Source: Prochlorococcus sp. AG-402-M15
GTDB taxonomy: Bacteria; Cyanobacteriota; Cyanobacteriia; PCC-6307; Cyanobiaceae
Reading direction: 5' to 3'
Assembly: GCA_003216615.1 (NCBI GenBank)
Contig: QCIP01000003.1
Span: 112,949 to 176,948, forward strand
DNA length: 64,000 nt
In this document: piece by piece, positions 42,863 through 62,494 of the stretch
Position numbering within the stretch: position 1 is the stretch's first letter
How the letters are laid out: each line of letters opens with the position of its first letter
The notes under the pieces: model-generated
Seen by the model: the letters and a program-made list of their open reading frames with translations, nothing else
Databases searched by the model: none
What the model was told of the DNA's origin: nothing
Program-made: the position numbers and the translations under genes

Positions 42863-42908
42863 GTGCTTTGGGAGCACTAGGTCGCAGGTTCGAATCCTGT
42901 CGCCCCGA
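42863..42908 (+). pseudogene. tRNA-Pro(UGG) 3' fragment R5
   Basis: Anticodon arm GTGCTTTGGGAGCAC, variable region, T arm (GCAGGTTCGAATCCTGT) and acceptor 3' strand CGCCCCGA of tRNA-Pro. The 5' half is absent, so it is not a functional tRNA. Class A flank with an AAGT.../ACTCGCTTTTTT terminator follows. Confidence 0.9.
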
Positions 42909-43056
42909 CTCTTAAAAACCAAGTCATACTAGCAAGTTACCCAGACTCGCTTTTTTATTGGATAATCTGACGGCAACAATTGCCGTCAAAATGCCGTCAA
43001 ATATAAAATTAGAACTTAGGATATTATTGTGTCTTTATTAATTTTAGAAATCTTAT

Positions 43057-43383
43057 ATGGAAAATTCTGATGACAAAAATGAGATTTTAGAAATCATAGA
43101 TAATTTAAAACCTATTTTTAAATTGATACAAAATAACAATAAATTTCTTTTTTATATACTTTCTATTCTCTTTTTTTCTTGGTACCTAAACCCTATTATT
43201 AAAGAATCTAGGATCAAAAACATTTGTGCTTTCAATATTGCACGCATTAGTCAAACAGAGTCTCCTTCAGCGAGGGGTATAGAATATGAGAAATTAGCTA
43301 ATAAATTAGGATTGGTAAATGGAGGATATAGGGATGTTGACCGTTTTTGTCAATTTTATAAATCGAGTGAAGAAAGTTATTAA
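43057..43383 (+). CDS. Membrane-anchored protein, unknown (108 aa); cargo of C1
   Basis: A charged N-terminus (NSDDKNEILEIIDNLKPIFK), one transmembrane helix (FLFYILSILFFSWYLNPII) and a C-terminal domain with three Cys-or-acidic patches (ICAFNIARISQTES, LGLVNGGYRDVDRFCQFYKS). No recognised family. The only gene of its cassette. Confidence 0.6.
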   Translation: MENSDDKNEILEIIDNLKPIFKLIQNNNKFLFYILSILFFSWYLNPIIKESRIKNICAFNIARISQTESPSARGIEYEKLANKLGLVNGGYRDVDRFCQFYKSSEESY

Positions 43384-43516
43384 TATACAATGATTTTCTA
43401 ATTAATATTTAGCCGTCAAATTGCCGTCAACAATATATTCAAAAATTCTTTTTTTTATTAGTTCCAACTAAAACTATTGCTACCACTTTAGACCAAGTGC
43501 TTCTTTTATTTCAAAA

Positions 43517-43562
43517 GTGCTTTGGGAGCACTAGGTCGCAGGTTCGAATCCTGTCGCCCCGA
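43517..43562 (+). pseudogene. tRNA-Pro(UGG) 3' fragment R6
   Basis: Exact 46-base copy of the tRNA-Pro 3' half. Preceded by TTTCAAAA rather than tRNA 5' sequence, followed by class B flank. Confidence 0.9.
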
Positions 43563-43680
43563 TCAGTTATAGCAGTAAGTCTCAGCTAATAATATATTTA
43601 ACCTAAAAAGTAGAGTGCCCAAAAAGTGCCCAAAATTAATTTTTTTTACTTGAAATCTTCATTAGAAGTAAGCGTTTCAT

Positions 43681-44133
43681 TTAATAATTTATTTTTACTC
43701 CCTTTGGTAGATCTATTTTCTCGCAACGAGTAGTAGTTATATCTTTAAGATTTTCTTCAGTGTTGTATGAAGATTTGTTCTTCTCTAAATCTATGGAGTA
43801 CATACCAATAACTTCTTCACTAAATGGACTTGTTTCGGTTTCTCTTATTTTTAAAATGTTATCTATCATTCTAGATCTATAGGAAAATGAATATTCTCCA
43901 ACTTTGTCATATTCCAAAGGATTTATTTCATTTAAAAATTCATCATAATCATAGAGCTTACCTGTTTTAACATCGTAAATCCAAGGGTAATCTTTCCACT
44001 TATCCTCAAATGATTTATTCAATAGATTTTTCGTTTCAGAGCAATATAAGCCTTGTAACTTTGGCTTTCCCAAAAATCCCATATTTAATAATGAGATAGA
44101 TATTAAAAGCGGTGCAAGTAGTAAGCGTTTCAT
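43681..44133 (-). CDS. Secreted protein, unknown (150 aa); cargo of C2
   Basis: Signal peptide MKRLLLAPLLISISLLNMGF, then FLGKPKLQGLYCSETKNLLN, FEDKWKDYPWIYDVKTGKLY and a C-terminal TTTRCEKIDLPKGVKINY. Directly after its stop a second, gene-less copy of the start word (ATGAAACGCTTAC on the minus strand, 43668-43680) runs into the cassette end, a relic of a deleted gene with the same start. Unknown role. Confidence 0.6.
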   Translation of the reverse strand: MKRLLLAPLLISISLLNMGFLGKPKLQGLYCSETKNLLNKSFEDKWKDYPWIYDVKTGKLYDYDEFLNEINPLEYDKVGEYSFSYRSRMIDNILKIRETETSPFSEEVIGMYSIDLEKNKSSYNTEENLKDITTTRCEKIDLPKGVKINY

Positions 44134-44154
44134 TTATTTTTCTTATTTTATAAA

Positions 44155-44559
44155 TTAAAGACCTGGATAAATTCCACTCCTTATAGCCGAATCAGGAGTT
44201 GGAACAATACACAAGGAAAGGCCAGATATTTTTCCCTCCTTTACGGAAGCATATGCAACTCCAAGTAGATTAGACTTATTGCCTTGAGCCATTATAAGGC
44301 AATCAGTATGACCATAGGCTGGGCAGACGCCTAATTCGGCATAAACAGAACTCTTAGTTTTTTTTATTACTTCAAGTTTTGGTCTGATATATTCGATGAA
44401 CTCATCTTTTGAGTTCATATCGGTTAGGACTTTTTGTGAGGAGTATGAGAAGTCGTCTGACAAAAACGATTCAAACTGAGAAGAATCAAGAGTGTGCATC
44501 ATCCTCGCATAGATACTCAAAGCTTCCTTTTCTGTTAGTTGAGAAGTTTCTTTTCCCAT
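44155..44559 (-). CDS. NTF2/SnoaL-like small protein (134 aa); cargo of C2
   Basis: EALSIYARMMHTLDSSQFES, FLSDDFSYSSQKVLTDMNSK, DEFIEYIRPKLEVIKKTKSS, then strands with LGVAYASVKEGKISGLSLCI: the cone-shaped alpha+beta pattern of NTF2-like proteins. No catalytic residues can be claimed. Preceded by promoter element E3 and followed 21 bp later by the secreted protein. Confidence 0.55.
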   Translation of the reverse strand: MGKETSQLTEKEALSIYARMMHTLDSSQFESFLSDDFSYSSQKVLTDMNSKDEFIEYIRPKLEVIKKTKSSVYAELGVCPAYGHTDCLIMAQGNKSNLLGVAYASVKEGKISGLSLCIVPTPDSAIRSGIYPGL

Positions 44560-44578
44560 TAGTCAAAAAATAAACTAT

Positions 44579-44621: not shown

Positions 44622-44753
44622 TTAATAACTACATAGATTATGTGCCCATAAAGTGCCCATAATCCAACAATATTAATCCTAATTAGTCCATACTTTATTC
44701 TCTAAAATTCCTGATATAGCTATAAGTCTCAGTTATGGCTTTAATCTTGCGGG

Positions 44754-44799
44754 TGCTTTGGGAGCACTAGGTCGCAGGTTCGAATCCTGTCGCCCCGAC
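44754..44799 (+). pseudogene. tRNA-Pro(UGG) 3' fragment R7
   Basis: Exact copy, with three more tRNA-like bases before it (GCGGGTGC). Class A flank with terminator AGCGAGTCTCCCAACTCGCT and T-run at 44822-44848 follows. Confidence 0.9.
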
Positions 44800-45082
44800 C
44801 ATTTAAAAACCAAGTCATACTAGCGAGTCTCCCAACTCGCTTTTTTATTTCTCATTTGTCTTAAAAATTGAAATAGCGATTAAATAGCGATTATTTGTAT
44901 AGCCTTGTATAACTTTGTCCAGTTAATCGCTAACCATCACTAGGTTCATTAAACCTCTAAATAAATAAAATAATCAATAAAGTACCAATACTGAAAATTA
45001 AACTCCAACCCTGAGAATTAATTTTCAATTTAAAAATTATTTATATGTAATGAGTAAAAAACCTAAATAGGTTAAAAACCAT

Positions 45083-45406
45083 TTATTCACACGACCTTTT
45101 ACTTGATGATGACTGAATTAAATTACCCATCCAATTTTTAATATCTGATAATACTTCCAAATCTAATTTGTAATAAACCCATCTACCTTCTTGTCTATCA
45201 GAGATAAGACCTGAATCCTTAAGGATTTTTATATGATAGGAAATTTTAGATTGAGATAATCCAGTCACTTTAACTATGTCGCAAACACATATCTCTCCAC
45301 CCATCATTAATTCAAGAATATTTATTCTAATCGGATCTGAGAGGGACTCCATTATCCCAATAAATTGATCACTATCAATCTTTTTAAGTTGTTCTAACAA
45401 AATCAA
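45083..45406 (-). CDS. arsR: ArsR/SmtB-family arsenic-responsive repressor
   Basis: 107 residues: winged-helix fold with the metalloid-binding motif EICVCDIVKVTGLSQSKISY (C-x-C-D in alpha-3) followed by the recognition helix HIKILKDSGLISDRQEGRWV and WVYYKL. ArsR dimers repress until arsenite binds the cysteines. A CE pair at the very end (KRSCE) could add a ligand. It is divergent from gap across two inverted-repeat operators. Confidence 0.92.
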   Translation of the reverse strand: MILLEQLKKIDSDQFIGIMESLSDPIRINILELMMGGEICVCDIVKVTGLSQSKISYHIKILKDSGLISDRQEGRWVYYKLDLEVLSDIKNWMGNLIQSSSSKRSCE

Positions 45407-45454
45407 AAGATCATTAACTTTTTAAATACTAACCTAAAAAATTTAATTACACAT

Positions 45455-45488
45455 ATCAAGAATTATTGATATATCAATTATTTTTGAT
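45455..45488. promoter_or_regulatory. ArsR-type operators between arsR and gap
   Basis: Two inverted repeats in the divergent promoter, ATCAAGAATTATTGAT (45455-45470) and ATCAATTATTTTTGAT (45473-45488), both of form ATCAA-N6-TTGAT or close to it. ArsR/SmtB dimers bind such sites. Related palindromes lie upstream of pstS. Confidence 0.75.
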
Positions 45489-45516
45489 ATATATTATATT
45501 AGGTTTTGATATTTCT

Positions 45517-46545
45517 ATGAAAATTGGAATTAACGGATTTGGAAGAATTGGTAGGTTAGTTTTAAGAATTTTATGGGAAAGAAAAGATATTGAAATAACT
45601 CATATAAATGAAATTAATGGGGATTCTTTAACTGCATCTCATTTACTAGAGTTTGATTCTGTTCATGGTAAATGGAATAAAAAAATAGCTTCGAATGACA
45701 ACGAAATATTAATTGAAGATAAAAAAATTTCCTTTACATCAATAAAGAACTATCTTGATGTTCCATGGAATAAATCTTCGGTTGATCTTGTTTTGGAATG
45801 TACAGGTAAAAACAAAGCTCCTAAAGAATTAAATCCATACTTTGATTCTCTTGGAATAAAAAAAGTAATAGTTGCTTGTCCTGTGAAAGGAATTGTGGGA
45901 GGGGACCAAGCACTTAATATTGTTTATGGAATTAATCAAGCCCTTTATAAACCTGAAAAACATAAATTAATTACAGCAGCATCCTGTACTACAAATTGCT
46001 TGGCTCCCATCGTAAAAGTTGTTAATGAAAATTTCTCAATTAAACATGGGGTTATAACAACTATTCATGACGTAACAAATACACAATCTCCAGTAGATTT
46101 TTACAAAAGTGACTTAAGAAGAGCAAGAGGATGCATGCAAAGCTTAATACCTACTACCACTGGATCAGCTAATGCGATTGCTGAAATTTTCCCTGAATTA
46201 GAAGGAAAACTAAATGGTCATGCAGTAAGGGTTCCACTTCTAAACGCCTCATTAACCGACGTAGTTTTTGAATTAAATAAGGAAGTAACTGAAGAGCAAG
46301 TAAATAATGAATTTAAAAAAGCATCTGAAACATACTTAAAAGGTATTCTTGGATACGAGGAGAGACCCTTAGTATCCGCTGATTACTTAAATGACTGTAG
46401 AAGTTCAATAATTGATGGACTTTCAACGATGGTTGTAAATTCTAATTTATTAAAGATTTATGCCTGGTATGACAATGAGTGGGGTTATAGTTGCAGGCTT
46501 GCAGATCTTACTTCTTATGTAATTGAGAAAGAAAATAAATTTTAG
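45517..46545 (+). CDS. gap: Glyceraldehyde-3-phosphate dehydrogenase of the arsenate module
   Basis: 342 residues from ATG 45517 ([19 protein letters not shown]). NAD-binding GxGxxG and the catalytic [16 protein letters not shown] (Cys nucleophile) are intact, as is the end [14 protein letters not shown]. Next to arsJ, this type of GAPDH makes 1-arseno-3-phosphoglycerate from glyceraldehyde 3-phosphate and arsenate, which ArsJ exports. The frame is open further upstream to 45466, but that region holds the operators. The arsJ start is 5 bp downstream. Confidence 0.9.
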
Positions 46546-46550
46546 TTTTT

Positions 46551-47807
46551 ATGAAGTTATCTAGCCTTCAACAATATAGTGTCGTTACCGCAAACTATTG
46601 GGCATTTACTCTTACTGACGGTGCATTGAGAATACTAGTTGTTGGTCATTTTCATGAACTTGGTTATTCAACTCTGCAAATTGCTTTACTTTTTCTTTTC
46701 TATGAATTTTTTGGAATAATTACAAATCTTTTTGGAGGATGGATAGGAGCAAGATATGGGTTGAGACTTACTTTATGGATAGGAACGATTCTGCAAATTC
46801 TTGCTCTCTTCATGCTGATTCCAGTCAAAGAGAATTGGTCAATAATCTTTAGCGTCTCATACGTTATGTTAGCCCAAGCACTTAGTGGGGTAGCAAAAGA
46901 TTTAAATAAAATGAGTGCAAAAAGTGCAGTTAAATCAATAGTTCCAGATTCAGAAGAGAATAATCAAAATATTCAAAAACAATTATTTAAGTGGGTTTCA
47001 ATTTTAACAGGATCTAAAAATGCACTTAAGGGTGTTGGTTTCTTCCTAGGGGGTCTCTTATACAAGCTATTGGGCTTTAATAATGCAGTTGGAATAATGG
47101 GTTTAGGTCTATGCTTCTCATTCTTTTTAACTTTATGTCTTCCTAAAGATTCAGGGAAAATGAAAAGAAAGCCAATTTTTAAAGACCTTTATTCAAAGTC
47201 TAAAGGTATTAATATTCTTTCAAGTGCAAGGTTTTTCTTATTTGGAGCAAGAGATGTCTGGTTTGTAGTAGCTCTTCCAGTATTTTTAGACATTTCTTTT
47301 GGATGGGATTATTTAAAAATAGGGCTGTTCTTGGGTGGATGGATAATAATCTATGGTTTCTTTCAAGTATTAGCTCCATTACTTAGAAAAGTATGGGGAA
47401 AAAATAATAGCCCAACAAAAACTACCGTTCAATTTTGGGGACTTATCTTGACGGTTATTCCTTTATTTATTGCAGGAGCATTAAACGGTGACAAATCATT
47501 AGGTCCTGTAATTGTTATTGGATTAATAATATTCGGCTTTGTTTTTGCTATGAATTCATCTACTCATTCCTACTTGATTTTGGCTTATTCAGATAATGAG
47601 AAAGTAAGTTTAAATGTTGGTTATTACTATATGGCTAATGCAGCGGGAAGATTATTTGGAACCCTGCTATCGGGCTTATTATTTATGCTCGGTAAAAATG
47701 CCACTATTGGTATGCAGTATTGTTTATATACTTCATCTATTTTGATTTTTATCGCTTGGCTTACTAGTTCTAAATTACCTTCCTATTCTTCCAACAGCTT
47801 CAATTGA
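46551..47807 (+). CDS. arsJ: Organoarsenical efflux transporter ArsJ (MFS)
   Basis: 418 residues, about 12 transmembrane helices, of the major facilitator superfamily. The start SSLQQYSVVTANYWAFTLTD and DGALRILVVGHFHELGY, and later GVAKDLNKMSAKSAVK and the motif A-like GGWIGARYGLRLTLW, are typical of ArsJ. It exports the unstable 1-arseno-3-phosphoglycerate, so pairs with gap give arsenate resistance. Its 3' end overlaps the convergent pstS by 33 bp. Confidence 0.88.
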   Translation: MKLSSLQQYSVVTANYWAFTLTDGALRILVVGHFHELGYSTLQIALLFLFYEFFGIITNLFGGWIGARYGLRLTLWIGTILQILALFMLIPVKENWSIIFSVSYVMLAQALSGVAKDLNKMSAKSAVKSIVPDSEENNQNIQKQLFKWVSILTGSKNALKGVGFFLGGLLYKLLGFNNAVGIMGLGLCFSFFLTLCLPKDSGKMKRKPIFKDLYSKSKGINILSSARFFLFGARDVWFVVALPVFLDISFGWDYLKIGLFLGGWIIIYGFFQVLAPLLRKVWGKNNSPTKTTVQFWGLILTVIPLFIAGALNGDKSLGPVIVIGLIIFGFVFAMNSSTHSYLILAYSDNEKVSLNVGYYYMANAAGRLFGTLLSGLLFMLGKNATIGMQYCLYTSSILIFIAWLTSSKLPSYSSNSFN

Positions 47808-48746
47808 TTTTTTTAAAATTTCACCTTTCAAGGGAACGAAACCCAAGGCAGGAGCTTTATCTTGGTATTCATCGCTGAGCAATTTATAGAATGTATCTTG
47901 AATTGCCTTAGTATTCCTTCCATTACCTGTTTCATAAGCAAGTATCCAAGTTAAGGTTGCTATTGGATAAGCTCCTTTAGCAGTAGGGTTTGGATTTTTA
48001 CCAGCCAAGTTCTTATCAAGAGTTATTCCATTTAAAGCTATCGCCCCTGATTCAGTATTAGGGGTAACGAATTCACCAGATAGGTTTTGAAGTGCAGCAG
48101 CCTTAACATTACCTTTAATGTATGACTGGTTTACATAACCAATTGCGCCAGGAGTGTTTTGAATAACACCTGCAACACCAGAATTGCCTTTTGCTCCAAC
48201 TCCCGAAGGCCATTTAACAGATTTACCAGTACCTAGATTCCAGGTTTTAGAGAAAGCCTCCATAGAATTTGTAAAAGCTTTAGTCGTGCCTGAACCATCA
48301 GAACGATGTGCCCAAGTTAATTTACCTGACTTACAGCCTAATTCTTTCCAGTTTTTAACCATACCCATAGCGACTCGTACTGCTTGCTCTTGAGTAAGTT
48401 TTAAATCGCAATCGTAGTTATATCCAAAGGCAATTGTGCCACCTACCATAGGTATTTGAACAAGTCCTCTTTTAACTTTTTCTATATCAGAATCTTTCAT
48501 AGGATCATCTGATGCACCAAAATTCACAGTTTCATCTATGAAAGCTTTTCTTCCAGATCCAGAACCTACTGCTTGATAATTAACTCTAGGGCCTCCAGAT
48601 TTAGCTAAGTCAAAAAACCACCTGGTATAAATTTTCGAAGGAAATGATGCACCAGCTCCACTCAATCTCTTTGATGCCATCGCAGATGGAGAAAGTATCA
48701 ATGAAATTGCAGAAGATAAAATGAGAGTTTTTTTGAAAATACTCAT
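47775..48746 (-). CDS. pstS: Phosphate ABC-type substrate-binding protein
   Basis: 323 residues with a signal peptide (LILSSAISLILSPSAMA) and the periplasmic phosphate-binding family motifs: GAGASFPSKIYTRWF, GSGSGRKAFIDETVNFGASD, HRSDGSGTTKAFT (phosphate contacts) and PGAIGYVNQSYI. It delivers phosphate to a Pst transporter encoded elsewhere. In this cassette it lies under ArsR-like operators, which would make a selective phosphate binder part of the arsenate response. Confidence 0.92.
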   Translation of the reverse strand: MSIFKKTLILSSAISLILSPSAMASKRLSGAGASFPSKIYTRWFFDLAKSGGPRVNYQAVGSGSGRKAFIDETVNFGASDDPMKDSDIEKVKRGLVQIPMVGGTIAFGYNYDCDLKLTQEQAVRVAMGMVKNWKELGCKSGKLTWAHRSDGSGTTKAFTNSMEAFSKTWNLGTGKSVKWPSGVGAKGNSGVAGVIQNTPGAIGYVNQSYIKGNVKAAALQNLSGEFVTPNTESGAIALNGITLDKNLAGKNPNPTAKGAYPIATLTWILAYETGNGRNTKAIQDTFYKLLSDEYQDKAPALGFVPLKGEILKKSIEAVGRIGR

Positions 48747-48937: not shown

Positions 48938-49127
48938 TCAATGATATTTTACAGCCCCTAAAGCACTAGGTCTTTGGTTAGCGATTATTTAGCGATTAAT
49001 TGTATATCTAAGGATAATTTTGTATAACTTTGGCCTATTTTTAAGACTCGTAATTTTGTAGATATAGCAACTAACAAGCTATAGCCTGACTTGTTTATTT
49101 AACCCACTGTCTCAAATTGGAGGGCGG

Positions 49128-49173
49128 GTGCTTTGGGAGCACTAGGTCGCAGGTTCGAATCCTGTCGCCCCGA
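49128..49173 (+). pseudogene. tRNA-Pro(UGG) 3' fragment R8
   Basis: Exact copy, preceded by GGGCG; class B flank (TCAGTTATAGCAGTAGGTTT) follows. Confidence 0.9.
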
Positions 49174-49296
49174 TCAGTTATAGCAGTAGGTTTGAGATAT
49201 TGACTAATCGTCTTAATATAAGATTTGCCCCTCTAGTAGCCCCTCCTGAGCTATAGCTTGCTATTACTTGCACCTATTGGTGCTCCTTTTGCCCCT

Positions 49297-49438: not shown

Positions 49439-49708
49439 TTAAGCAGCATCATATTCTTCATCTTCAAGCTCTCTTATAAATCTTTTATCTAATAAGTAAT
49501 TGTCTATAAGCTCTGCTGCCATCACTATCTCAGCTGCAGGTTCTTGTAGATCTTTGTTTAATAAGTAATTATCCATAAGCTCTAGATTGTACTCGTTTTC
49601 TTTAATTGGTTTATCGCTGTTTAATAGTTCTCTTATGAAGTTATATACAAGCTCTTGATCATATCCACTTTCTCTAATTTCCTTCAACATTTCGTCTGGA
49701 ATTTCCAT
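49439..49708 (-). CDS. Helical repeat protein, family of two (89 aa); cargo of C4
   Basis: From ATG 49708: MEIPDEMLKEIRESGYDQEL, VYNFIRELLNSD, then two copies of an ELxDNYLLxK unit (LELMDNYLLNKDLQEPAAEI and AAELIDNYLLDKRFIRELED). A close paralogue is 56350-56625 in another element. Acidic, helical, with no enzyme motif; likely a small binding protein. An ATG at 49717 adds three residues. Confidence 0.6.
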   Translation of the reverse strand: MEIPDEMLKEIRESGYDQELVYNFIRELLNSDKPIKENEYNLELMDNYLLNKDLQEPAAEIVMAAELIDNYLLDKRFIRELEDEEYDAA

Positions 49709-49949
49709 AATCGTCAACCCCTTTGAAAACCTCTATACATATAGAAACGAATTTTGAATAAAAAATCAAATATCTATCAGATCTGAAGATCTACCTTGTT
49801 CAAGACTTTCAATTATTTCTCTTAATTTTCTTAGTTCAACCTTATTCTCTCTATCAATAATTCCACTTCCTTACATATATTGAATAATAAATAATTAACT
49901 TTTCATTGAAAAATTTATGGTGTAATATCTCAATAAAATTAACATTGAA

Positions 49950-50297
49950 ATGGCAAAACTCTACAAAGTAAACGAAGGCAAGATGCTCTTTGGTGTTTGT
50001 ACTGGCCTTGGAGCCACTGGTGGTGCATCAGTTACTACATGGAGAATAGTTTTCGCAGTAAGTTCTCTTTTCCTTTTCTTCCCAATAGTTATTTATTTCG
50101 TAATGGGTGTTGCTCTTCCTGTAGCAAAGAAAAAGAATGACATCTCTAAAATTGAAGAGGTAGAGGTCAAGAAAGAATTAGGAGGTAATGTTGATAAAAT
50201 CGAAGTAGAACTGGAGAAAATAAAAGAAATGAGAGATAAAAATTTAATATCGGAAGAAGAATTTCAAAGCCTAAGAAATAAAACGTTGGGATTATGA
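49950..50297 (+). CDS. PspC-domain protein with SHOCT-type tail; cargo of C4
   Basis: 115 residues: PspC domain at the N-terminus (MAKLYKVNEGKMLFGVCTGL, ATGGASVTTWRIVFAVSSLF and a second helix ending VMGVALPVAKKK), then a linker and a C-terminal short helical SHOCT-like unit (KIKEMRDKNLISEEEFQSLR). PspC proteins sense membrane stress; SHOCT tails are oligomerisation modules. Confidence 0.82.
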   Translation: MAKLYKVNEGKMLFGVCTGLGATGGASVTTWRIVFAVSSLFLFFPIVIYFVMGVALPVAKKKNDISKIEEVEVKKELGGNVDKIEVELEKIKEMRDKNLISEEEFQSLRNKTLGL

Positions 50298-50461
50298 TGC
50301 TTTCATGTGACACTAGGTTGATAAAGAGCCCCTCCAAGAGCCCCTCCTGACTAATATCATGCAATAGCAGTTTGCAATACTCTCTCTCTAGTTGGTTATT
50401 ATAACTACAATTTAATTAAGCTATAACTAAAGTCTCAAGAATATTAGAAAAATAGTCACGA

Positions 50462-50507
50462 GTGCTTTGGGAGCACTAGGTCGCAGGTTCGAATCCTGTC
50501 GCCCCGA
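50462..50507 (+). pseudogene. tRNA-Pro(UGG) 3' fragment R9
   Basis: Exact 46-base copy. Class A flank with AGCGAGTTTCCCAGACTCGCT terminator and T-run follows. Confidence 0.9.
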
Positions 50508-50685
50508 CTCTTAAAAACCAAGTTATAGTAGCGAGTTTCCCAGACTCGCTTTTTTATTGGAAAATCTGACGGCAGAGAAAGCCGTCAAAATGCCGTCAAA
50601 TATGATTTCTAGTATTTAAAAATAGATTTATGTTTTAAAGACTTTTTATAGGGATAAAGTACAATTTCTAAATAAAGATTTAATA

Positions 50686-53600
50686 ATGGAAGATACTTAT
50701 AAAAAGTTAGAAGAGTCAAAACAATACATCAGGGAATCAAATGAGTTTCTCTATATTTCTATGGCATGGTGGTGGGATGACTATGTAGGCAGAGAATTAT
50801 TTAAAGAAGTAGAAAAAGCTCATAAAAGGAATATTGATATAAGAGTCGAAATGCGTCCTGATCCTAAGAATCAACAAATAGAAAGAAAGTTATCACAACT
50901 AAATATAAAAGTCACTGAAATAGTCGAATTTCACGCAAAAGCAATTTGCAATGAAAAAAGTCTCTTAATAATGAATGGAAATTATTTTGAAAAAGATATG
51001 CTGAGAAATATAAATTTTTCAGCAGTAGAGAAGGACCAAGAAAAAATTAATGATCACAAAAAAGAATTTCTTGAAAGATCATTTAATAAAACAATCCAAT
51101 TCGATGGGCCTGAACTATATACACAAAAATCAAAATTAATTAAGGAGAAAAATATATGCGATTTATTAAAGTGGGAAAAACTTAATCCATTACAAAGCAA
51201 GGTTTGCAGACATGTTTTATATGGAGATGAAAATTTATTAGTTATTGCTCCTACTGCTTCAGGGAAAACCTTAATTGGTGAGTTAGCGCTTTATAGATCA
51301 ATTTTATTAGAGGGGAAAAGAGCCGTTTGGATCGTTCCATCAAGAGCTCTAGCTGACGAAATAACGCAGTCACTTTATAGAGTTAGATCTCCAGAAATTA
51401 GGCCTTTAAAATGCTTAGGCAATGATGAAGTTAGTAATAGCTCTTTAAGAGACAATAATATATGGATTTGCACTATTGAAAAATTTGAATCCCTCCTTAG
51501 AAAGAAATCCATTGATGGAATAACTTATGAAATAGAGTCAGTAATAGTTGACGAGATTCATCTTCTTGGAGATCAAGGAAGAGGGCAGATTTTAGAGTCA
51601 ATTATTGCACGATATAAAGATCGCATTAATACAAAAAGAATTGTCGGATTATCCGCGACATTGGAAAACGCTGAGGAATTTTCAGGATGGTTAAATGCTC
51701 GACTATTAAAAAGTAAATGGGTTCCAAATACAGTTCATAAGGAAGTTATTACCTTCGAAGCGACTGAAAATGAGTCTCCAAAATATATCACTAAAAAGAA
51801 AAATGAGATTCTTACAAAAATCATTCGGAGTATTAAAAATGATAAGAATAAGTCTGGCCCAATAATTATCTTTTGCGGTTCAAAAAATAAATGTAGAAAT
51901 CGCGCATTCCATATTATCTCCGGTAAAGATAATGCAGAATCATCATATGATTTTAAATCTACATTTAATGAAGAAGATTTTGTATATCTAAAGGACCATA
52001 GAGTTGGGATTCACTATAGTAATTTTCAATTTGCCAATGAATTTAAAAATTTGTATTTAAAAAAAGAAATTGATGTTCTTTTCGCAACTACAGGTTTAGC
52101 TCAAGGAGTAAATCTCCCCGCAAAACATGTAATTATTTTAGATACTATTCTCGGTAAAGATTCAAACTTGGATCTAAATCAAGCAGAACAAATGCTTGGG
52201 AGAGCAGGTAGAACACATGACAGTGAAGGATGGGGATATTTAGTTTGTCCTTCATATGAATACAATAAATGGAAAGATGATATAGGAGTTAAAACATCTA
52301 ATGTAAATAGTGTTATTGATAAACATTTACCAGATGTTTTATTAGCAGAATTTTTTCTAGAGAATATAAATTGTGAAAGAGATGCCTTTGACTTTTATAA
52401 GAGATCATTTAGAACCTACCAATCGAAAAAAGATGAAACAACCATTTTAAAAGAGGTTTCTAATTCAATTGATTTTCTTTTAAGTAATGACTTCTTAGAA
52501 AGGGGGAAAGATGATGATCGACTCATACCTACTGAAGTAGGTAAAGCCTCTATTCAATTTATGGTTGATACTAATATTGCTGTCTCTTTGATAAATTCAT
52601 GTTCAAAGATTGTTTTTCCAAATAGTTATAAAGAAGCAGAGAAACAACTTATTAAAATTCTTGCTGATGCATTACCTAAGGCAACTATTTATGACATTGA
52701 TTATGATCTTGAAAAATACATAACAGAAGTACTAAACAATATCGGAATTTCTATTAAGGAAGATCAAGCAATTGATTATATTTCTCTATTTGCAATTCAT
52801 TTAGCTTTAAATGACCCAGAAGAAATTAGTAAGATTTCAGCTAAAAACAAAGAATTAAGAAGTTTTTTCCAACTTCTATTGGAGGATCAATGTCCAAGAT
52901 ATTTTGGCTGGTTATCAAGAATAGGGAAATATACAAGATCTCCATGGGTAGTTTTTTGCACATTTGATTTATCCAAAAGATTGAAATGGCATAAGCTCTC
53001 TCCAAATAATTACAAGGGTTCAAGCAAACTAATAAGTTTTTTAGAGCAATTAATAAATCCAGAGGAAGTTAACAATGAACTACCTAAAACCTGGCAGGCT
53101 GCAATAAATAAAAGATTCACCTCTCCAACAAAATTAGATAGAGAGACGAAAGAGCTTAGTTGTTCAAAAAATGCTGATGCAATTCAAAGAAGACTTTCAT
53201 CCTTAATTAGAAAATCTGATGTCAAATTAAAATATGATGACAAAATTAAACAAATTAGAATAAGTGGTCTACCTACAGATACTAGAACAGTCTTTGCAGA
53301 AGTTTTTAAACCAAACTCAGTTAAAGGTCTTATTACATACATCACCGATGGGAGAGAATTTCTTATTTCAGTACCTTTTGGATCAAATCCAACGAATACA
53401 TATAAGATCCTTATAAGTATCGAAACGCGAACAGATAGAGACCTGCTTGCTTTTGAAAAATCAATAACTTCTACTGATAATAAAAACCAAGCTGAAGCCT
53501 TTTACCAAAACATAATTACAAAAATAACTGATCTTCCAGATATTCAAAAGATATCTAAAAAAAAGGGACTACTTGGAAAAATAAAGAAGAAGTTAAATAT

Positions 53601-54282: not shown

Positions 54283-54377
54283 TCAGTTATAGCAGTAAGT
54301 CTCAGCTAATAATATATTTAACCCTAAAAGTAGAGTGCCCAAAATGTGCCCATAATTAATCTAAATTTAGAAATTAA

Positions 54378-56696: not shown

Positions 56697-56768
56697 TTAA
56701 TCTTTAGGCCATTGATGGGGAACTAGCCCACCTAATGCAGCTATTTGCGTGCCATTTGCGTGCTCACT
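56697..56768 (-). pseudogene. 3' end remnant ending AALGGLVPHQWPKD, truncated at an arm repeat
   Basis: An open frame on the minus strand ends GTQIAALGGLVPHQWPKD stop. Upstream it runs into the CACGC arm repeats and has no start. A similar DNA stretch is at 38990-39045. An arm site of a cassette appears to have cut the gene. Confidence 0.4.
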
Positions 56769-56815: not shown

Positions 56816-56861
56816 TCGGGGCGACAGGATTCGAACCTGCGACCTAGTGCTCCCAAAGCAC
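56816..56861 (-). pseudogene. tRNA-Pro(UGG) 3' fragment R11
   Basis: Exact copy on the minus strand; first of the minus-oriented group. Class B flank (AGCTGAGACTTACTGCTATA on plus) and CACGC arms follow it. Confidence 0.9.
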
Positions 56862-57086
56862 TGGAATTATTTTTTGAGAAATACTTGAGACTTCAGTTAT
56901 ATATTGAATAAATATAATGATATTTTTGATTTTCAAATAAAATCAGTCTCATAATTCCTGCTTGTAATTACGTGTATTTACTCTTTAGCTACCCCCCTAG
57001 CTACCCCATATGAAGTCTTTAGACTTCTAAAAGTTAATAAACCAAAGCTATTAAAAAAATAATGTCAGAATTAAATAAAAATCAAA

Positions 57087-57599
57087 ATGTCATTTGTTAA
57101 TTTTTTCGAGAAGAAGCTTCTATTCTCATTAGGAAGACATCTATGGAACATAGCAGGCGTATCTGGATTTATTGCTTTTTTAACGGGAGTAATTCTTTTT
57201 GCTGAAGGTAACATTATGGAACAGGCAAAGACCAAAGAGATATTTATTGGTAAAAAACAGTTAATTACTGACAAGAAGTTAGAAGAGTCTACAAGCGATC
57301 TTTTGACATATGAACAGTGGAAGAATCAACAAAATATTGCTGTCGATAATTATTCTGAATATTTAAAATATAAAGAGCCTTTTGAGAAAAAACTAAATGA
57401 TCTAATCTTTGAGAGAGAAAATCAAAATAATAAGTACGAGGATTATTTAACTCTAGTGGCTTCTAGAAATGATCTTAAAAGAAGTCGAGCAATTGCATCA
57501 CCATTTGTAATTCTATCTGGACTAGGCGTAATTGCTTCTTCTTCAATTTCTAGTGTTATTTTTTCAATCGAGAGAAATCAGAGGAAAGAAGAAAATTAA
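57087..57599 (+). CDS. Two-helix membrane protein with coiled-coil middle (170 aa); cargo of C7
   Basis: An N-terminal helix (NIAGVSGFIAFLTGVILFAEG), a long charged middle with helical repeats (QAKTKEIFIGKKQLITDKKL, KYKEPFEKKLNDLIFERENQ), and a C-terminal helix (SPFVILSGLGVIASSSISSV). The middle is long enough to lie outside the membrane as a coiled coil. Unknown. Confidence 0.6.
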   Translation: MSFVNFFEKKLLFSLGRHLWNIAGVSGFIAFLTGVILFAEGNIMEQAKTKEIFIGKKQLITDKKLEESTSDLLTYEQWKNQQNIAVDNYSEYLKYKEPFEKKLNDLIFERENQNNKYEDYLTLVASRNDLKRSRAIASPFVILSGLGVIASSSISSVIFSIERNQRKEEN

Positions 57600-57657
57600 T
57601 CTAGGCTAATTAAAATAATCTTTATAAAATTAAGATTGAATAAATTTGCGGAATTAC

Positions 57658-58212
57658 ATGAAAGGATTAATTTTCTTGTCATTATTAATACTTCCTTTTA
57701 ATCCAACAAAAGCATCTGTAAGAAAAGATATTCACAATCTTTGTATTAGTGCAGTTGATTATCTTGGTTGCGTTGAAGCAATGTCAGGTACTACAAATAA
57801 TAATTTTGAAAGCTTATCTGAAACTTACGAAAGATTGAGGAAATTAAGTTCAAGAACTGGGGTAGGTTTAAATAAGGAGCAATTTTCAAATTTATGGGGA
57901 AAAAATGCTTTTTACCTTGAAGAGGAAATAAAAAAGAGATCAGGCAAGACAAAGCTAATTCTGCAAGATACTTATCATAAATATAAAGATATTCAAGAGT
58001 TCTGGAACTGCATTTTTAAAACTCAATATGCATCTCTTATGACACGTTATTGCTTGAGCTATGAATTTCAAGTAAGGAATCCAGAAATAATTTCTTTTTT
58101 GGCTGATTATGTAGGCAGATCATCTGAGGTTACTTATATTGTTAATCAGTTAATGACAAAGGCTTCAGTTCAGGTTGAAACCCTTGGCCATCATTTAAAA
58201 AACATTGAATAA
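57658..58212 (+). CDS. Secreted CxxAxDYxGC protein (184 aa); cargo of C7
   Basis: From ATG 57658: signal peptide (KGLIFLSLLILPFNPTKA), then the shared motif HNLCISAVDYLGCVEAMSGT, followed by a helical domain with four more Cys (FWNCIFKTQYASLMTRYCLS). A TTG at 57646 is an alternative start. It belongs to the family also seen at 58217 and 61193. Function unknown; periplasmic. Confidence 0.6.
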   Translation: MKGLIFLSLLILPFNPTKASVRKDIHNLCISAVDYLGCVEAMSGTTNNNFESLSETYERLRKLSSRTGVGLNKEQFSNLWGKNAFYLEEEIKKRSGKTKLILQDTYHKYKDIQEFWNCIFKTQYASLMTRYCLSYEFQVRNPEIISFLADYVGRSSEVTYIVNQLMTKASVQVETLGHHLKNIE

Positions 58213-58216
58213 TTAG

Positions 58217-59128
58217 ATGAGAAAAATTAAATTATTGATTATCCTTTCTTTATTAACAGATCTTTTCTTTTTTAATAAGCAAATCCAGGCAAATACAGTA
58301 TCTCCTGAAGTTCATAAATCATGTCTGCAAGCAAAAGATTATAAAGGATGTATTAAAGCCAACGCATCAAAAAGTGATACTCAAATTACAAATAGAAATC
58401 CTTATGAAAAGTGCAAAATGAATACTGGTAGAGTTGGAATCCTTACAGCATATACGCCAGATGGAATATATGTTTTTGGGGAATCAATTGACGGTAGTTT
58501 AAAAGAAGGTGATATCGTTACTATTCCAATCAATGGATGTCCTGGAGAGACAAAATTTTACCCAATAATAAGAAACGGTAAAAGAACTAATGTTCGAGTA
58601 AGTTTTTATTCCAAAAACGATCCTTTTACTGAAGAACATACAAAAAACATTCTTGAAAATAGAAAATCAAGTATTTTATCTTTTCATGAGGAACGAATAA
58701 AAAAAGGAGCTGACAAGGTTTTCATCGATAATTCTTATTTTGCAATAAATGGCATCAATAAACATACCTTTTCTCAATGTTCAGTCCTAAGAGAAAGTCC
58801 TGAATTAATATCTCTATTGCAAAAATGGGAAGATACTAATTCTTTAGCTGAGATGGGAATGACCAGACTTGATTGGTGTAAAAGATTTACCCAAAAGTTC
58901 CAAATTAAAAATGATGGGAAAAGATATTTGAATGTTCTTTGGCCTTTTTATAGAGAGCAATCAGGGATTAGAACTAACTATCTTCAGAAAGTCAAAATTG
59001 ACTGCATAGATCGGACGTTTGATGGCGAAAAAGATGGTAGACCTTGGAGAAGCTTTGATTCTGAGGAAGGGAAAAATATGGCTCTTTTAGATGACTTATG
59101 TAAATCAGAGAAATTGAGTAAAAGTTAA
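58217..59128 (+). CDS. Secreted CxxAxDYxGC protein (303 aa); cargo of C7
   Basis: Signal peptide (LLIILSLLTDLFFFNKQIQA), motif VHKSCLQAKDYKGCIKANAS, then a long exported domain with Cys-rich segments (YEKCKMNTGRVG, INGCPGETKFYPI, TFSQCSVLRESPEL, LDWCKRFTQKFQ, IDCIDRTFDGE). It is 4 bp after the 57658 gene, so the two are one operon. Perhaps a disulfide-rich periplasmic factor; no enzyme motif. Confidence 0.65.
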   Translation: MRKIKLLIILSLLTDLFFFNKQIQANTVSPEVHKSCLQAKDYKGCIKANASKSDTQITNRNPYEKCKMNTGRVGILTAYTPDGIYVFGESIDGSLKEGDIVTIPINGCPGETKFYPIIRNGKRTNVRVSFYSKNDPFTEEHTKNILENRKSSILSFHEERIKKGADKVFIDNSYFAINGINKHTFSQCSVLRESPELISLLQKWEDTNSLAEMGMTRLDWCKRFTQKFQIKNDGKRYLNVLWPFYREQSGIRTNYLQKVKIDCIDRTFDGEKDGRPWRSFDSEEGKNMALLDDLCKSEKLSKS

Positions 59129-59260
59129 ATCTCATTAATCTCTTAAAAATACTTGTAGTTACTCCCTAGCTACCCTTCTGGCTACCTTTTCTTATGTGAG
59201 ACTGTAAACATTAAAAAAGAGACTATAAGAAAGTCTCTAGTATCACTTTGTTTTTAAGAG

Positions 59261-59306
59261 TCGGGGCGACAGGATTCGAACATGCGACCTAGTGCTCCCA
59301 AAGCAC
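59261..59306 (-). pseudogene. tRNA-Pro(UGG) 3' fragment R12
   Basis: One change (ACATGCG for ACCTGCG). Its 5' side shares TGTCGCAAATTGCGTA and CAAGTGAGGCTATAGC (as complements or direct) with R14, so the flanks of these two copies have a common origin. Confidence 0.88.
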
Positions 59307-59463
59307 CCAGTACGCAATTTGCGACAGTACCCACAAGAAACAAGTGAGGCTATAGCTTATGAGTTGGTATGACTAGAATTAATATGAGTCTCAATATTGA
59401 CCCATATACAGCAAGGTATGGCACAGATATGCAAATAATCGCTAAATAATCGCTAAGCTACAA

Positions 59464-59486: not shown

Positions 59487-59511
59487 TCTAATCAATTTAT
59501 AGTGGTTCTGA

Positions 59512-59553: not shown

Positions 59554-59554
59554 A

Positions 59555-59614: not shown

Positions 59615-60193
59615 ATGAAACGCTTACTTCTAATACCAATTCTGTTATTAACTAGTTGCTCTTTTGCAGAAAAGGATCTATCTCAAAGAGTTGAGCTTTG
59701 GAATGGTATTAAAGCTGGAATAAACATTGAAGAATTAAAAAAAGTTTTGGGTGGAGACACCTCTTGCAATCAAGTAACAGATTGGTTTGATAAACCTATT
59801 GATGGTGAGTTTATTTGCTGGAGAAAATATCCTGAGGTCTCAGTTGGTAATGAAAAAGGCGAGGTAGGGGTATCTATAAAAAATAATATTGTTAATGAAA
59901 TTTGGATAACATTTAATTTACAAAGTAAATGTCTAGAAAACAATGAAACCATAAGATATGGTGATCAAAATAATCCTTGTTTTATAGCATTAGAAAGAAG
60001 AATTTCTAAAAGTATTGAAAATGCAAAGAAAATACTCTCTGCTAAATATGGAGAAATTGTCCAAGTTCCGTCTCTATTCAATGATGACAAAATATATTAT
60101 GGATGGATATCTGAAGGCAAAATAATAAGAATTAGACGACCTGATCTTGGTGTCTGGTCAATATTTTATTCAGTAAACGAATCACCTCTTTAG
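59615..60193 (+). CDS. Probable lipoprotein, unknown (192 aa); cargo of C8
   Basis: MKRLLLIPILLLTSCSFAEK: a signal sequence with a lipobox (LTSC), so probably lipid-anchored. The mature part has ELWNGIKAGINIEELKKVLG, GEFICWRKYPEVSVGNEKGE, VNEIWITFNLQSKCLENNET and a C-terminal helix-strand region. The beginning ATGAAACGCTTACTTCT is shared with several cassette genes. Confidence 0.65.
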   Translation: MKRLLLIPILLLTSCSFAEKDLSQRVELWNGIKAGINIEELKKVLGGDTSCNQVTDWFDKPIDGEFICWRKYPEVSVGNEKGEVGVSIKNNIVNEIWITFNLQSKCLENNETIRYGDQNNPCFIALERRISKSIENAKKILSAKYGEIVQVPSLFNDDKIYYGWISEGKIIRIRRPDLGVWSIFYSVNESPL

Positions 60194-60201
60194 TTAAAGA
60201 A

Positions 60202-60540
60202 ATGAACAATTCAATAATAAAGGCACTTTTATTTGTTATTGCAATAGGCACTTCAATAATGGCTGTTGAACTAGTGCCTATTTCTAGACAAGCCTATTTG
60301 TTTAACTTATGTAGAGACTACAATGCTTGGTGGAACGAATCTAGGTTGTTAGCAGACTGGTATCAAAGTGGCAATACAGAAAAAGAAGAAGAATTTAGTA
60401 AAGCAGTAGCAAAATCAAACTATTATTTGCAAAAGATATACAAAGAGCTAAATATAAATGCAACTCTGCATGGGCAAGAAGCATCATATAAGTTTTGTGA
60501 GAGGATTGGCTTTGATTGGTTTGTTGATGTGGTTGATTAA
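60202..60540 (+). CDS. Secreted or anchored helical protein (112 aa); cargo of C8
   Basis: N-terminal hydrophobic segment (IIKALLFVIAIGTSIMAVEL), then helices with FNLCRDYNAWWNESRLLADW and SYKFCERIGFDWFVDVVD; two Cys. It follows the lipoprotein gene after 8 bp, probably co-transcribed. Right after its stop ATGAACGCTTAATACTTACC is a decayed MKRLLL gene start. Confidence 0.6.
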   Translation: MNNSIIKALLFVIAIGTSIMAVELVPISRQAYLFNLCRDYNAWWNESRLLADWYQSGNTEKEEEFSKAVAKSNYYLQKIYKELNINATLHGQEASYKFCERIGFDWFVDVVD

Positions 60541-60702
60541 ATGAACGCTTAATACTTACCACGTTATGAGCGATTAATGCAGCAAGGTTATGCAAGGTAT
60601 AGCGAATAATCGCTATATAATCGCTAAGTCTTATTTTTCTTATAGTTGGCAATAAAAAAGAGAGTCTGGGAAACTCTCTTGTATGAATTGGTTTTTAAAT
60701 GG

Positions 60703-60748
60703 TCGGGGCGACAGGATTCGAACCTGCGACCTAGTGCTCCCAAAGGAC
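60703..60748 (-). pseudogene. tRNA-Pro(UGG) 3' fragment R13
   Basis: One change in the anticodon stem (CAAAGGAC instead of CAAAGCAC). Class A flank with the AGAGAGTTTCCCAGACTCTCT terminator on its 3' side. Confidence 0.88.
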
Positions 60749-60952
60749 TCGATCTATCAAATGAGATTTACTTGTAAGCCTAGTTATAGTCTTAATTGTC
60801 TAAAGATAGTGGAACTAGTTTGAGACTAAATATAAGTATATCTTCGAAGATTTTATAAGGTATTTATAGATCCTAGATCCCCCTACAGATCCCCCCTCTC
60901 TACGACAAAGTACTCTCCGTTAAATATATCGGAAATTTGATAGTTTTTTTAG

Positions 60953-60991
60953 GAAGTCGATCTAACACAAGGGATAACTAGCTTCTTTTTT
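60953..60991 (+). promoter_or_regulatory. Recurrent element, decayed copy E7
   Basis: AGGAAGTCGATCTAACACAA then GGGATAACTAGCTTC and six T. GTCGATCTAACA and GGGATAA are kept; the TTGACA and hairpin are damaged. It precedes the decayed gene at 61000. Confidence 0.45.
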
Positions 60992-60999
60992 GCGTAAAG

Positions 61000-61155
61000 A
61001 TTTTTAATACCTTTTTTTGCTGCTATCTCATTACCCACTTCTGTTAATGCAAATGTAGATCCAGAAGTTCATAAAAATTTTCTCTCGTAAAGGATTACAT
61101 AGGATGCGTTAAGTTTAAATCTGTTCAAAATTCAATAAAAATAGATAAAGTTTGA
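61000..61155 (+). pseudogene. Decayed CxxAxDYxGC secreted protein
   Basis: No start. IPFFAAISLPTSVNA resembles a signal peptide, then NVDPEVHKNFLS and a stop; one base out of frame it continues KDYIGCVKFKSVQNS. This is the same motif as in the 58217 and 61193 proteins, broken by a 1-base deletion and substitution of the first Cys. Confidence 0.5.
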
Positions 61156-61192
61156 ATTTATATTGAAATAATATTTTCCCACCTTATGTAGA

Positions 61193-62257
61193 ATGTTTAA
61201 AAACAGTTTTAAATTAGTGAAAAAAATAATCTTTCCTTTTTTGGCTTGTATTGCATTACCAACAACTATTCATGCAAATGTTGATTCCAAAGTTGCTGAG
61301 TTTTGTTTGAAGGCCGCGGACTTTAATGGTTGCGTTGAAAGTATGTCTGGAACGAAAAAAAATAATCCATCTCCTAAATCTGAATACGATAATGCCTTAG
61401 TTCATCTTGCATCCCTTGATACTTCTTCTGCAATGAAGTCTATTAATTTATTTATTAAGGACAACCCAATGTCTAAAGAAGCTTACCTCGTAAGAAGTAT
61501 AATTTACAGTTATGACTTAACTTTTGATGGTAAAACAACCTTCATAAAAAAAGCAATACGTGATTTAGATAAAGCAATAGAAATAGATGACAATTACTCT
61601 TATGCTTATGCAATAAGGGCAGACAATCATTTCTATATAGGAAATACAAATCAAGCTAAAAGAGATATCGAAAAAGCAATTGATTTAGCTCCAAATCACC
61701 CTCATACAAATCATCTCAGAGGTCATATTTATAAGAGTATTGGTCTTGAATTTTTAGAAAAAAAGAAGTATGAACTAGCTATATATAATGGTAGAGAAGC
61801 ACAAGATAGTTTTGAAACAGCCCTTAAAAACCATAAACCAGATAACCAAAATTTGATAATGAAAAGGTTTTTCCCTTTTGGTTTAACTTATTACATACAT
61901 ACTGCTCTAGGTGATACACAGTTGGATCTACTTTTTAGCTCTTACAGGGGAATAGAAAAGAAAGGAGAAGGTGGGGGTGATGAAGCAAAGAAAAGTCTTA
62001 TTGATGCAATAAATCATTATTCAAATGCAATCATAAGTTCTCCAACTAAGAAAGAAACCGATAAATATGCCTTAGACACAAAAGATAAAGGAGGAATTGT
62101 GCACACTAACATAAGTGATATTTATTTATGGAGAGGGAACGCATATCAATTATCTAATTCTTCTAGTGACCAAAATAAAGCATGCGAAGATTGGGAAAAA
62201 TCGAAAAAATTAGGCAATAAAGAAGCAATTAGTTCTTTCAGAAATGCTAAATGTTGA
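61193..62257 (+). CDS. Secreted TPR protein with CxxAxDYxGC motif (354 aa); cargo of C9
   Basis: Signal peptide (KKIIFPFLACIALPTTIHA), then VAEFCLKAADFNGCVESMSG, then tetratricopeptide-like repeats (YLVRSIIYSYDLTFDGK, AIRDLDKAIEIDDNYSYAYA, QAKRDIEKAIDLAPNHPHTN) and a closing CEDWEKSKKLGNKEAISSFR. TPRs give a protein-binding surface, so this may be a periplasmic scaffold. Same family motif as the C7 proteins. Confidence 0.75.
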   Translation: MFKNSFKLVKKIIFPFLACIALPTTIHANVDSKVAEFCLKAADFNGCVESMSGTKKNNPSPKSEYDNALVHLASLDTSSAMKSINLFIKDNPMSKEAYLVRSIIYSYDLTFDGKTTFIKKAIRDLDKAIEIDDNYSYAYAIRADNHFYIGNTNQAKRDIEKAIDLAPNHPHTNHLRGHIYKSIGLEFLEKKKYELAIYNGREAQDSFETALKNHKPDNQNLIMKRFFPFGLTYYIHTALGDTQLDLLFSSYRGIEKKGEGGGDEAKKSLIDAINHYSNAIISSPTKKETDKYALDTKDKGGIVHTNISDIYLWRGNAYQLSNSSSDQNKACEDWEKSKKLGNKEAISSFRNAKC

Positions 62258-62448
62258 TATTCAAAGATACAAAGAAAGAAAATATTTCCTAATTGGGTTA
62301 AAACGGTCAAATACCGCTATGAATTAATCATTATTTGGGGATCTTCGAAGATCCTAGATCCCCCTACAGATCCCTTTTGGCTTATGAGACTGATAGATAA
62401 TAAAAAAGCGAGTTGAGAGACTCGCTAGTATAACTTGGTTTTTAAGAG

Positions 62449-62494
62449 TCGGGGCGACAGGATTCGAACCTGCGACCTAGTGCTCCCAAAGCAC
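62449..62494 (-). pseudogene. tRNA-Pro(UGG) 3' fragment R14
   Basis: Exact copy, minus strand, with class A flank and AGCGAGTCTCTCAACTCGCT terminator on the 3' side. It is the last copy in the window. Confidence 0.9.

Follow-up and report, generated by a model that had tools for sequence, protein, structure and literature searches.

Integrase-free gene cassettes stacked behind tRNA-Pro in Prochlorococcus carry matching end codes that likely address them to integrases encoded elsewhere

Our analysis concerns an array of small gene cassettes in Prochlorococcus sp. AG-402-M15, located at positions 42863 to 62494 of a 64,000-nucleotide stretch of DNA (hereafter the window) and bounded by repeated copies of the 3' half of a tRNA-Pro gene. 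We interpret the window as a tandem array of integrase-free cassettes, eight of which carry a short code that matches between their two ends, and each of which is predicted from its sequence to be moved in trans by a tyrosine integrase that reads that code; we place the probability of this reading at roughly 0.7. The short codes are likely addresses that set which outside enzyme moves which cassette.

The repeated boundary, which we call the core, is the last 46 nt of the tRNA-Pro(TGG) gene. Ten cores lie between 42863 and 62494, each with zero or one mismatch, the first six on the plus strand and the last four on the minus strand, and shuffled sequences yielded none; an initial annotation of this DNA, made from the letters alone, had described ten near-identical 46-base tRNA-Pro halves bounding the blocks, and this description holds. 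An eleventh copy with 2 mismatches is present at 31633(-), and no intact tRNA gene was detected within the window by ARAGORN. Genome-wide there are 13 core matches. The copy at contig C6:105314 belongs to an intact tRNA-Pro(TGG) gene, while the second core on contig C6 and the cores of the window lie outside any intact tRNA gene. Behind the intact gene on contig C6 there is one cassette and one core, and then the contig ends; the window (contig C3:112949-176948) also finishes at the end of its contig. The array probably runs from contig C6 across an assembly gap into contig C3 read backwards, a join that we infer. Decayed tRNA-Pro pieces occur outside the array at 29605, 31633 and 39246 (all on the minus strand, with 7, 2 and 12 mismatches, respectively) and are probably an older part of it, though the piece with 12 mismatches may be a chance match. 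The core is common in the genus, being present in 226 of 266 genomes.

Each arm code is a word of 7-9 bp that occurs twice, 11 or 12 bp apart, behind the first core of a cassette and again before the next. In the window an exact tandem 7-mer is matched at both ends of seven of the eight same-strand blocks, and cassette C7 differs by one base; all eight two-sided codes listed in the initial annotation are thus present, and its expectation that the ends match beyond chance is borne out, as a mere 4 of the 40,320 possible pairings of left with right ends reach 7 matches. For the wider comparison we assembled 61 stretches (53 yielding cassettes) from 37 genomes, namely those with listed coordinates and hand-picked high-quality ones among the 226 with a core match; 288 cores with up to 8 mismatches delimited 216 distinct cassettes. 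A two-sided tandem 7-mer was found in 120 of these; 1000 shuffles of the partners gave 5.9 on average and at most 14, and none survived in 50 shuffles of the letters. The repeat period is the same at both ends in 119 of the 120. In 115/120 cassettes the left arm starts at a distance of 29-32, 51-55 or 72-77 bp from the core, values spaced by about two helical turns, and the right arm lies near 109, 120 or 142-150 bp from the core in 112/120. Judged from sequence, these fixed distances and the 11 or 12 bp period are as expected for integrase arm sites. The 43 leftmost 7-mers that were counted merge by eye into about thirty codes. These are not private to single blocks, as had been proposed: cassettes C1 and C5 share a code, as do C3 and C8, and each code recurs in other genomes. 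The two-sided share follows the state of the core, from 72/85 at perfect cores through 29/40 at those with one mismatch to 19/91 at those with two or more. Units whose right arms lie at about 145-150 bp also show, by eye, an extra decayed core piece (like CACTAGGTC) immediately outside the right arm, at 48955-48998, 59436-59490 and 62626-62680 of the window and at the right ends of L115 and L125; this resembles an insertion of the end module itself into an older core.

In the genome of the window no integrase of the tRNA-Pro arm-code family (relatives of the integrase A1) was found at E<=1e-20, and the same search found such integrases in 99 of the 266 genomes of the genus. PF00589 has two matches in the genome of the window, on contigs C13 and C5, whereas the array occupies contigs C3 and C6; the match on contig C13 is not a member of the integrase family, nor is the 473-aa integrase that this genome encodes. 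Family integrases were collected by searches of viral contigs, named genomes and the genus (where 30 matches were fetched by search and 60 by place) together with loci fetched by place, giving 185 distinct entries. Close to the gene start, 159 of them (157 distinct) have a tandem repeat with a period of 10-12; left out were 7 entries that aligned only past profile position 20, some of them distant chromosomal proteins, and 19 without a detected arm. Upstream of these 157 integrases a tRNA-Pro core motif lies within 420 bp in 129 cases, and others are at tRNA-Gly, -Ala or -Tyr/Thr loci.

The codes of the integrase-free cassettes recur beside these integrases. For 83 of the 120 two-sided cassettes the code equals the integrase-proximal tandem 7-mer of another locus, against a permuted mean of 4.9 (maximum 14) and a single match for the reverse complement. 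Exact 7-mers replaced a whole-arm similarity measure, which proved too strict because the letters of the spacer vary; by that measure 28/103 cassettes match an integrase arm, with 0.4 expected and none for the reverse complement. Among the codes of the window, GCCGTCA (L327), GTGCCCA (L242, L206, L212), GCCCCTC (L340) and GGGATCT (L332) have an integrase elsewhere by exact 7-mer, and GGTAGCTA (L165) and TGAGCGAG (L166) by comparison of arms. Just 6 of the 216 cassettes encode a family integrase themselves, three of them among the 120 two-sided cassettes, and these three are the autonomous form; one, L165, is a 9.1-kb element with GGTAGCTA arms whose integrase gene starts next to the right arm and is oriented away from the core. 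Of the 21 viral contigs that bear a core, 14 have the same code on both sides of it, as expected of an attP; in the other seven the sides differ (3), one is cut, and the tRNA 5' half precedes the core (3). Ten proteins of the viral contigs L079 and L085 include a sigma factor, an Erf-like annealing protein, a helicase and a minor tail protein, and both contigs therefore look like temperate phages; a search of 50,697 INPHARED phage records at E<=1e-3 found no relative of the L085 integrase, and no NCBIfam model matches five of the integrases at E<=0.01.

Two further kinds of integrase locus were observed. In at least 13 genomes, an integrase of about 468 aa with the code TGTACGCA is located on the immediate upstream side of the intact tRNA-Pro, in divergent orientation to it (13 loci: L050, L205, L207, L210, L214, L216-L219, L221, L222, L264 and L267). 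It is possible that this is a resident, integron-like reader, or an element that uses the 5' side; the other boundary of such an element was looked for and not found. In genome G043, one 16.4-kb element with a 433-aa integrase occupies two sites (L157 and L158), with ends TCCGTAGA on the left and GTGCAGTCT on the right.

Among close relatives, the code tracks the integrase N-terminal domain and not the catalytic part, as far as sequence comparison can tell. For this analysis 7 entries with probably mis-called arms were removed by hand, leaving 150, of which 4 lacked a tandem 7-mer; the remaining 146 were dereplicated to 114. When the nearest neighbour was used to predict the code, the N-domain alone was correct for 19 integrases and the catalytic part alone for 2, both for 67 and neither for 26. 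Pairs with N-domain identity of at least 0.9 share their code in 56/56 cases, compared with 46/65 for the same catalytic identity. In clusters of at least 90% catalytic identity that differ in code, the N-domain is less alike than the catalytic part in 10/10, with a mean difference of -0.32 against -0.02 in 23 same-code catalytic clusters, a test that is approximate only, as it takes clusters as independent. Single pairs illustrate both directions: L195 and L331 have a code in common and N-domains that are 94% alike but catalytic parts that are 43% alike, whereas the catalytic parts of L317 (GCGGACA) and L330 (TTCCGTCA) are 98% alike. Six residues (R298, K321, R393, H394, H417 and Y426) are invariant in 13 integrase sequences, and we take these to be the catalytic R, K, H/R, H and Y. 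The best full-length structural alignment of the cognate integrases is with lambda integrase.

Taken together, these observations suggest a mechanism in which the identical core would be the common crossover site and the arms alone would set which cassette leaves. The repeats would be arm-type binding sites read by the N-terminal domain of an integrase located elsewhere in the population, and this lambda-like enzyme would assemble a complex only on units that bear its own word, with arms on both sides of the core. Entry would take place at the tRNA gene, and cells that lack an integrase would rely on incoming phages or autonomous elements of the same code. The core at a stacked junction usually stands between two different codes and would thus be nobody's attP, which may keep one integrase from tearing out several units.

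The distribution of cassettes among genomes bears on this mechanism and on its alternatives. At 80% coverage both ways, 42 cassettes fall into 14 clusters shared across genomes, and of 61 comparable neighbour sides none is conserved; instead of standing in a fixed order with no gain or loss of single cassettes, the finding that would have spoken against the initial annotation, units recur singly among new neighbours. Five other genomes share the cargo of cassette C3; its arms are TAGCGATTA in three of them (98% identical) and GGGCGATC in the remaining two (94-95%), where both ends are exchanged and the cargo is kept. A second cargo, cluster 1, occurs in six genomes, with arms that are GCGGTCA-like in some and GCGGACA in others. 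The same cargo with different end codes across genomes suggests that cargo can be re-addressed. At 12 loci in 12 genomes, the 1.6 kb that end at the last base of the intact tRNA-Pro match L210 with 93.3-99.6% identity; together with L210, the first left arms behind this backbone comprise eight codes by eye, and in 4 of the 12 loci the next 300 bp behind the core have no similarity to L210. Core mismatches grow with rank from the intact tRNA, from a mean of 0.4 at rank 1 to 3.6 at rank 6 (rho 0.47, n=118, 24 arrays), a trend reached in 0 of 2000 within-array permutations (18 arrays) and expected if new units enter at the tRNA.

The foremost alternative sees the blocks as defunct remnants of autonomous elements, each of which brought in an integrase and lost it, relics like cis-mobilizable elements (CIMEs) whose arms are inherited scars and which no longer move in trans. 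The family integrase is indeed missing from 210/216 cassettes, the decay of cores and arms increases away from the tRNA or goes along with core decay, and tandem decayed elements are the usual account in the part of the literature on integrative conjugative and mobilizable elements available to us (PMC5704250). We nevertheless consider this explanation unlikely, as three other genomes hold an integrase-free cassette at 98% identity along 4.4 kb, its cores being perfect or nearly so and its neighbours unrelated, and as many different codes are found in the position directly behind a single conserved backbone. A second alternative, that cassettes spread by homologous recombination at the tRNA-Pro copies and their flanks, the integrases having founded the array long ago and being unneeded now, draws on the identical 46-nt repeats every 0.7-4.4 kb, the inverted array half in the window and the terminator-like sequence common behind many cores. 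It leaves unexplained both the same code, period and spacing at the two ends of a cassette and the neighbours that were not carried along (0/61 conserved), and appears quite improbable. That the repeats are operators of an integrase promoter, or excisionase sites, is very improbable: the right-hand repeat is placed at the integrase gene start and autoregulation is known for other integrases (PMC2951348 concerns one such case), but integrase-free cassettes have kept both repeats, and in the integrated state the left one has no integrase promoter anywhere near it. A companion excisionase that reads the same word as the integrase is possible.

Several observations weigh against movement of the cassettes in trans by code-reading integrases. 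TAGCGATTA, the commonest code of the genome (carried by C3, C8 and the tRNA-proximal cassette), adjoins no integrase in the loci read; a pattern search of viral contigs found no integrase with it, and at the integrase loci read the word is confined to the far side of the core. More broadly, 37/120 two-sided cassettes have no matching integrase, and 96/216 cassettes, mostly ones with decayed cores, have no two-sided code. Elements with integrases of about 433 aa have unlike end repeats in the three loci seen whole (L157, L158 and L159, two of these being copies of one element). When all integrase pairs are taken, the arm correlates more strongly with the catalytic part when the N-domain is held constant (partial correlation 0.27) than with the N-domain when the catalytic part is held constant (0.15; 0/300 permutations), so that the effect of the N-domain stands out only among close relatives, and as the DNA that encodes the N-domain adjoins the right arm, linkage could explain part of their co-variation. 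Taken by itself, the predicted N-domain matches no solved structure with confidence, those of lambda and other arm-binding domains included. Behind the core of 8/12 backbone loci there is a short similarity to L210 (46-130 bp, 76-85%) in a terminator-like stretch, 2/18 arrays show the opposite trend of mismatches with rank, and at ranks 8-9 (4 copies) the mismatches are lower again.

Known mobile systems share parts of this organization. Hackl et al. (Cell, 2023) reportedly described the tycheposons of Prochlorococcus as tRNA-targeted elements with a tyrosine recombinase and cargo, and the tRNA-Pro integrases of about 433 aa are presumably of this kind. As summarized in part of a later paper, tycheposons target tRNAs, encode a tyrosine recombinase and are 4-200 kb in size (PMC10872708). 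The units of the window have neither a tyrosine recombinase of their own nor, taken as a class, this size: unlike tycheposons, they span 0.65-4.4 kb, are free of recombinase genes and bear one code at their two ends, and the three loci with integrases of about 433 aa that were seen whole lack a two-sided code. Additive flexible genomic islands hold strain-variable cassettes behind a tRNA insertion target in Alteromonas (PMC4119200, PMC5217437) and Methylophilaceae (PMC10872708), where they are bounded by tRNA-Lys 3'-end repeats (PMC10872708). The present cassettes are similarly bounded by tRNA 3'-end repeats, the arrays of relatives start at the intact tRNA, and content varies between strains (0/61 neighbour sides conserved; 13 loci that share a backbone differ in their first cassettes). 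The tRNA target and the added, strain-variable cassettes are thus common to both, while an end code that links cassettes to distinct integrases is, within the portions of these papers available to us, found only here. In CIMEs and tandem accretion, integrase-free units with attachment sites are stacked beside integrase-bearing elements (PMC3146451, PMC5704250, in the sections available), and the units of the window resemble them by sequence in that putative attL and attR are kept and integration genes are absent. They differ in that about thirty arm codes are seen here and that codes match integrases of other genomes; the Dehalococcoides ssrA islands, in the excerpt to hand, use a serine recombinase (PMC3146451). 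Lambda integrase is heterobivalent, with a small N-terminal domain that binds arm sites flanking the core and a separate catalytic part (PMC4880445, in part). By sequence, the viral contigs resemble lambda in that putative arm sites flank the core in a predicted attP in 14 of the 21 that hold one; unlike lambda, one fixed core here accompanies many arm codes, and the fold match of the N-domain is not confident.

Integrons likewise hold non-autonomous cassettes that enter an array at one end, but no resident array integrase was found here and the boundaries are tRNA halves with arm repeats. The initial annotation had proposed an integron-like storage system; new units apparently enter next to the tRNA, as they would in an integron, but an array integrase of the integron kind was not found in the window's own genome at E<=1e-20. 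Repeated tRNA-Pro 3' pieces are reportedly present in a genomic island of MED4 as well (Coleman et al., 2006), an island for which arm codes or matching integrases are not known to have been reported; the repeated pieces in Prochlorococcus are the point of likeness. Near the P-SS2 site of MIT9313 there are five copies of a 36-bp tRNA-Met piece, and the phage bears a matching stretch by its integrase (PMC2784084); the present pieces are of tRNA-Pro and have end codes, of which the available part of that source describes none. Islands inserted at tRNAs and equipped with tyrosine integrases can be moved by a helper phage (PMC12595487, in the part available). Our literature search, which did not cover Hackl 2023 and Coleman 2006 and leaves priority unsettled, found no report of arm codes that tie integrase-free cassettes to integrases.

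A broader and more tentative proposal, to which we give somewhat less than even odds, is a population-wide addressing system: about thirty codes on integrase-free cassettes with one core would be read by the fast-evolving, swappable N-domains of integrases borne by phages or elements, the array would be an ordered, dated stack, kept by a streamlined cell, from which each incoming integrase calls out only its own cassettes, and cargo could be re-addressed. The array may be either a host storage system or a queue of mobilisable parasites. If true, such addressing would supply a concrete rule for which flexible genes of very abundant ocean phototrophs move, given by the address at the cassette end and a small reader domain on mobile integrases, and the order of cores would give a relative clock of gene gain. 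Integrases that are almost the same except, for the most part, in the reader domain, and whose target words are known, offer ready natural material for working out how this domain recognizes DNA, and they could yield orthogonal recombination tools.

The units of the window are 0.65-4.4 kb long, and seven of the eight same-strand blocks are shorter than 4 kb. On the plus strand, and with arms and cores on that strand throughout, C1 begins with a core without mismatches at 42863..42908 and has GCCGTCA arms (twice each) at 42982..43001 (period 11) and 43412..43431 around a 108-aa plus-strand open reading frame (ORF; 43057..43383) without a Pfam match. Behind the next core (43517..43562), C2 has GTGCCCA arms (twice each) at 43615..43633, a code also adjoining the L242 integrase, and 44642..44660; its two minus-strand ORFs of 150 and 134 aa (43681..44559) have no Pfam match. 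C3 follows the core at 44753..44798, with TAGCGATTA arms (twice each) at 44874..44893 and 48979..48998, and its cargo (45083..48746) comprises by Pfam an ArsR-type regulator (-), GAPDH (+), an MFS transporter (+) and a PBP_like_2 binding protein (-) that we take to be PstS-like. The core at 49128..49173 opens C4, whose GCCCCTC arms (twice each) lie at 49227..49246 (period 12) and 50328..50347, a code also adjoining the L340 integrase, and which encodes a 92-aa ORF (-) and a PspC-domain protein (+) within 49439..50297. C5, behind the core at 50462..50507, has GCCGTCA twice at 50581..50600, as beside the L327 integrase, and three times at 54117..54147; its sole gene (50686..54102, +) encodes a 1138-aa DEAD-box helicase that is HamB-like (Hachiman defence family) by Pfam and PADLOC.

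The last plus-strand core (54237..54282) opens block C6 (54237+ to 56861-), across which the direction of the array flips. The block sits between inverted cores and is not a single unit; the claim that each block is one inserted unit fits the same-strand blocks and fails here. It contains a GTGCCCA pair, as the C6a left arm (54335..54352, twice) and a partner at 54628-54645, and at its opposite side a CACGCAA left arm (56745..56763, -) of a minus-strand unit behind the core at 56816(-). Because the right arm at 54628 has no core behind it, the array must either have lost a boundary here or have undergone an inversion through the block. From here arms and cores are on the minus strand and cargo on the plus strand. 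C7 has its right end at the core 56816..56861, a right arm GGTAGCTA (twice, period 12; 56986..57005) with a code also adjoining the L165 integrase, three ORFs (57087..59128) without a Pfam match and the left arm GGTAGC(T/C)A (59167..59186). Beyond a core with 1 mismatch (59261..59306), C8 has TAGCGATTA arms (twice each) at 59436..59455 on the right and 60607..60626 on the left around two ORFs (59615..60540) without a Pfam match. C9 lies between a core with 1 mismatch (60703..60748) and the last core of the window (62449..62494), with GGGATCT arms at 60875..60894 (right; twice, period 12, code also adjoining the L332 integrase) and 62356..62375 (left; twice), and encodes a 354-aa TPR-like protein (61193..62257) with matches to four TPR models, all under the Pfam cut-off. 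Past 62494 there is a further, one-sided block, whose right arm TGAGCGAG (twice; 62626..62645) has a code also adjoining the L166 integrase and whose left end is outside the window. Near the contig end, 62726-63754 encodes a 342-aa protein with NO VEIN C-terminal and DUF3427 matches and a weak HmaA match. Two ORFs of about 91 aa in different blocks (49439-49717 and 56350-56625) are alike by eye, and neither has a Pfam match. The ORFs at 57646 and 58217 (C7) and 61193 (C9) share, by eye, an N-terminal pattern, V.K..H..C..A.D..GC.E.MSG, which follows a signal-peptide-like start.

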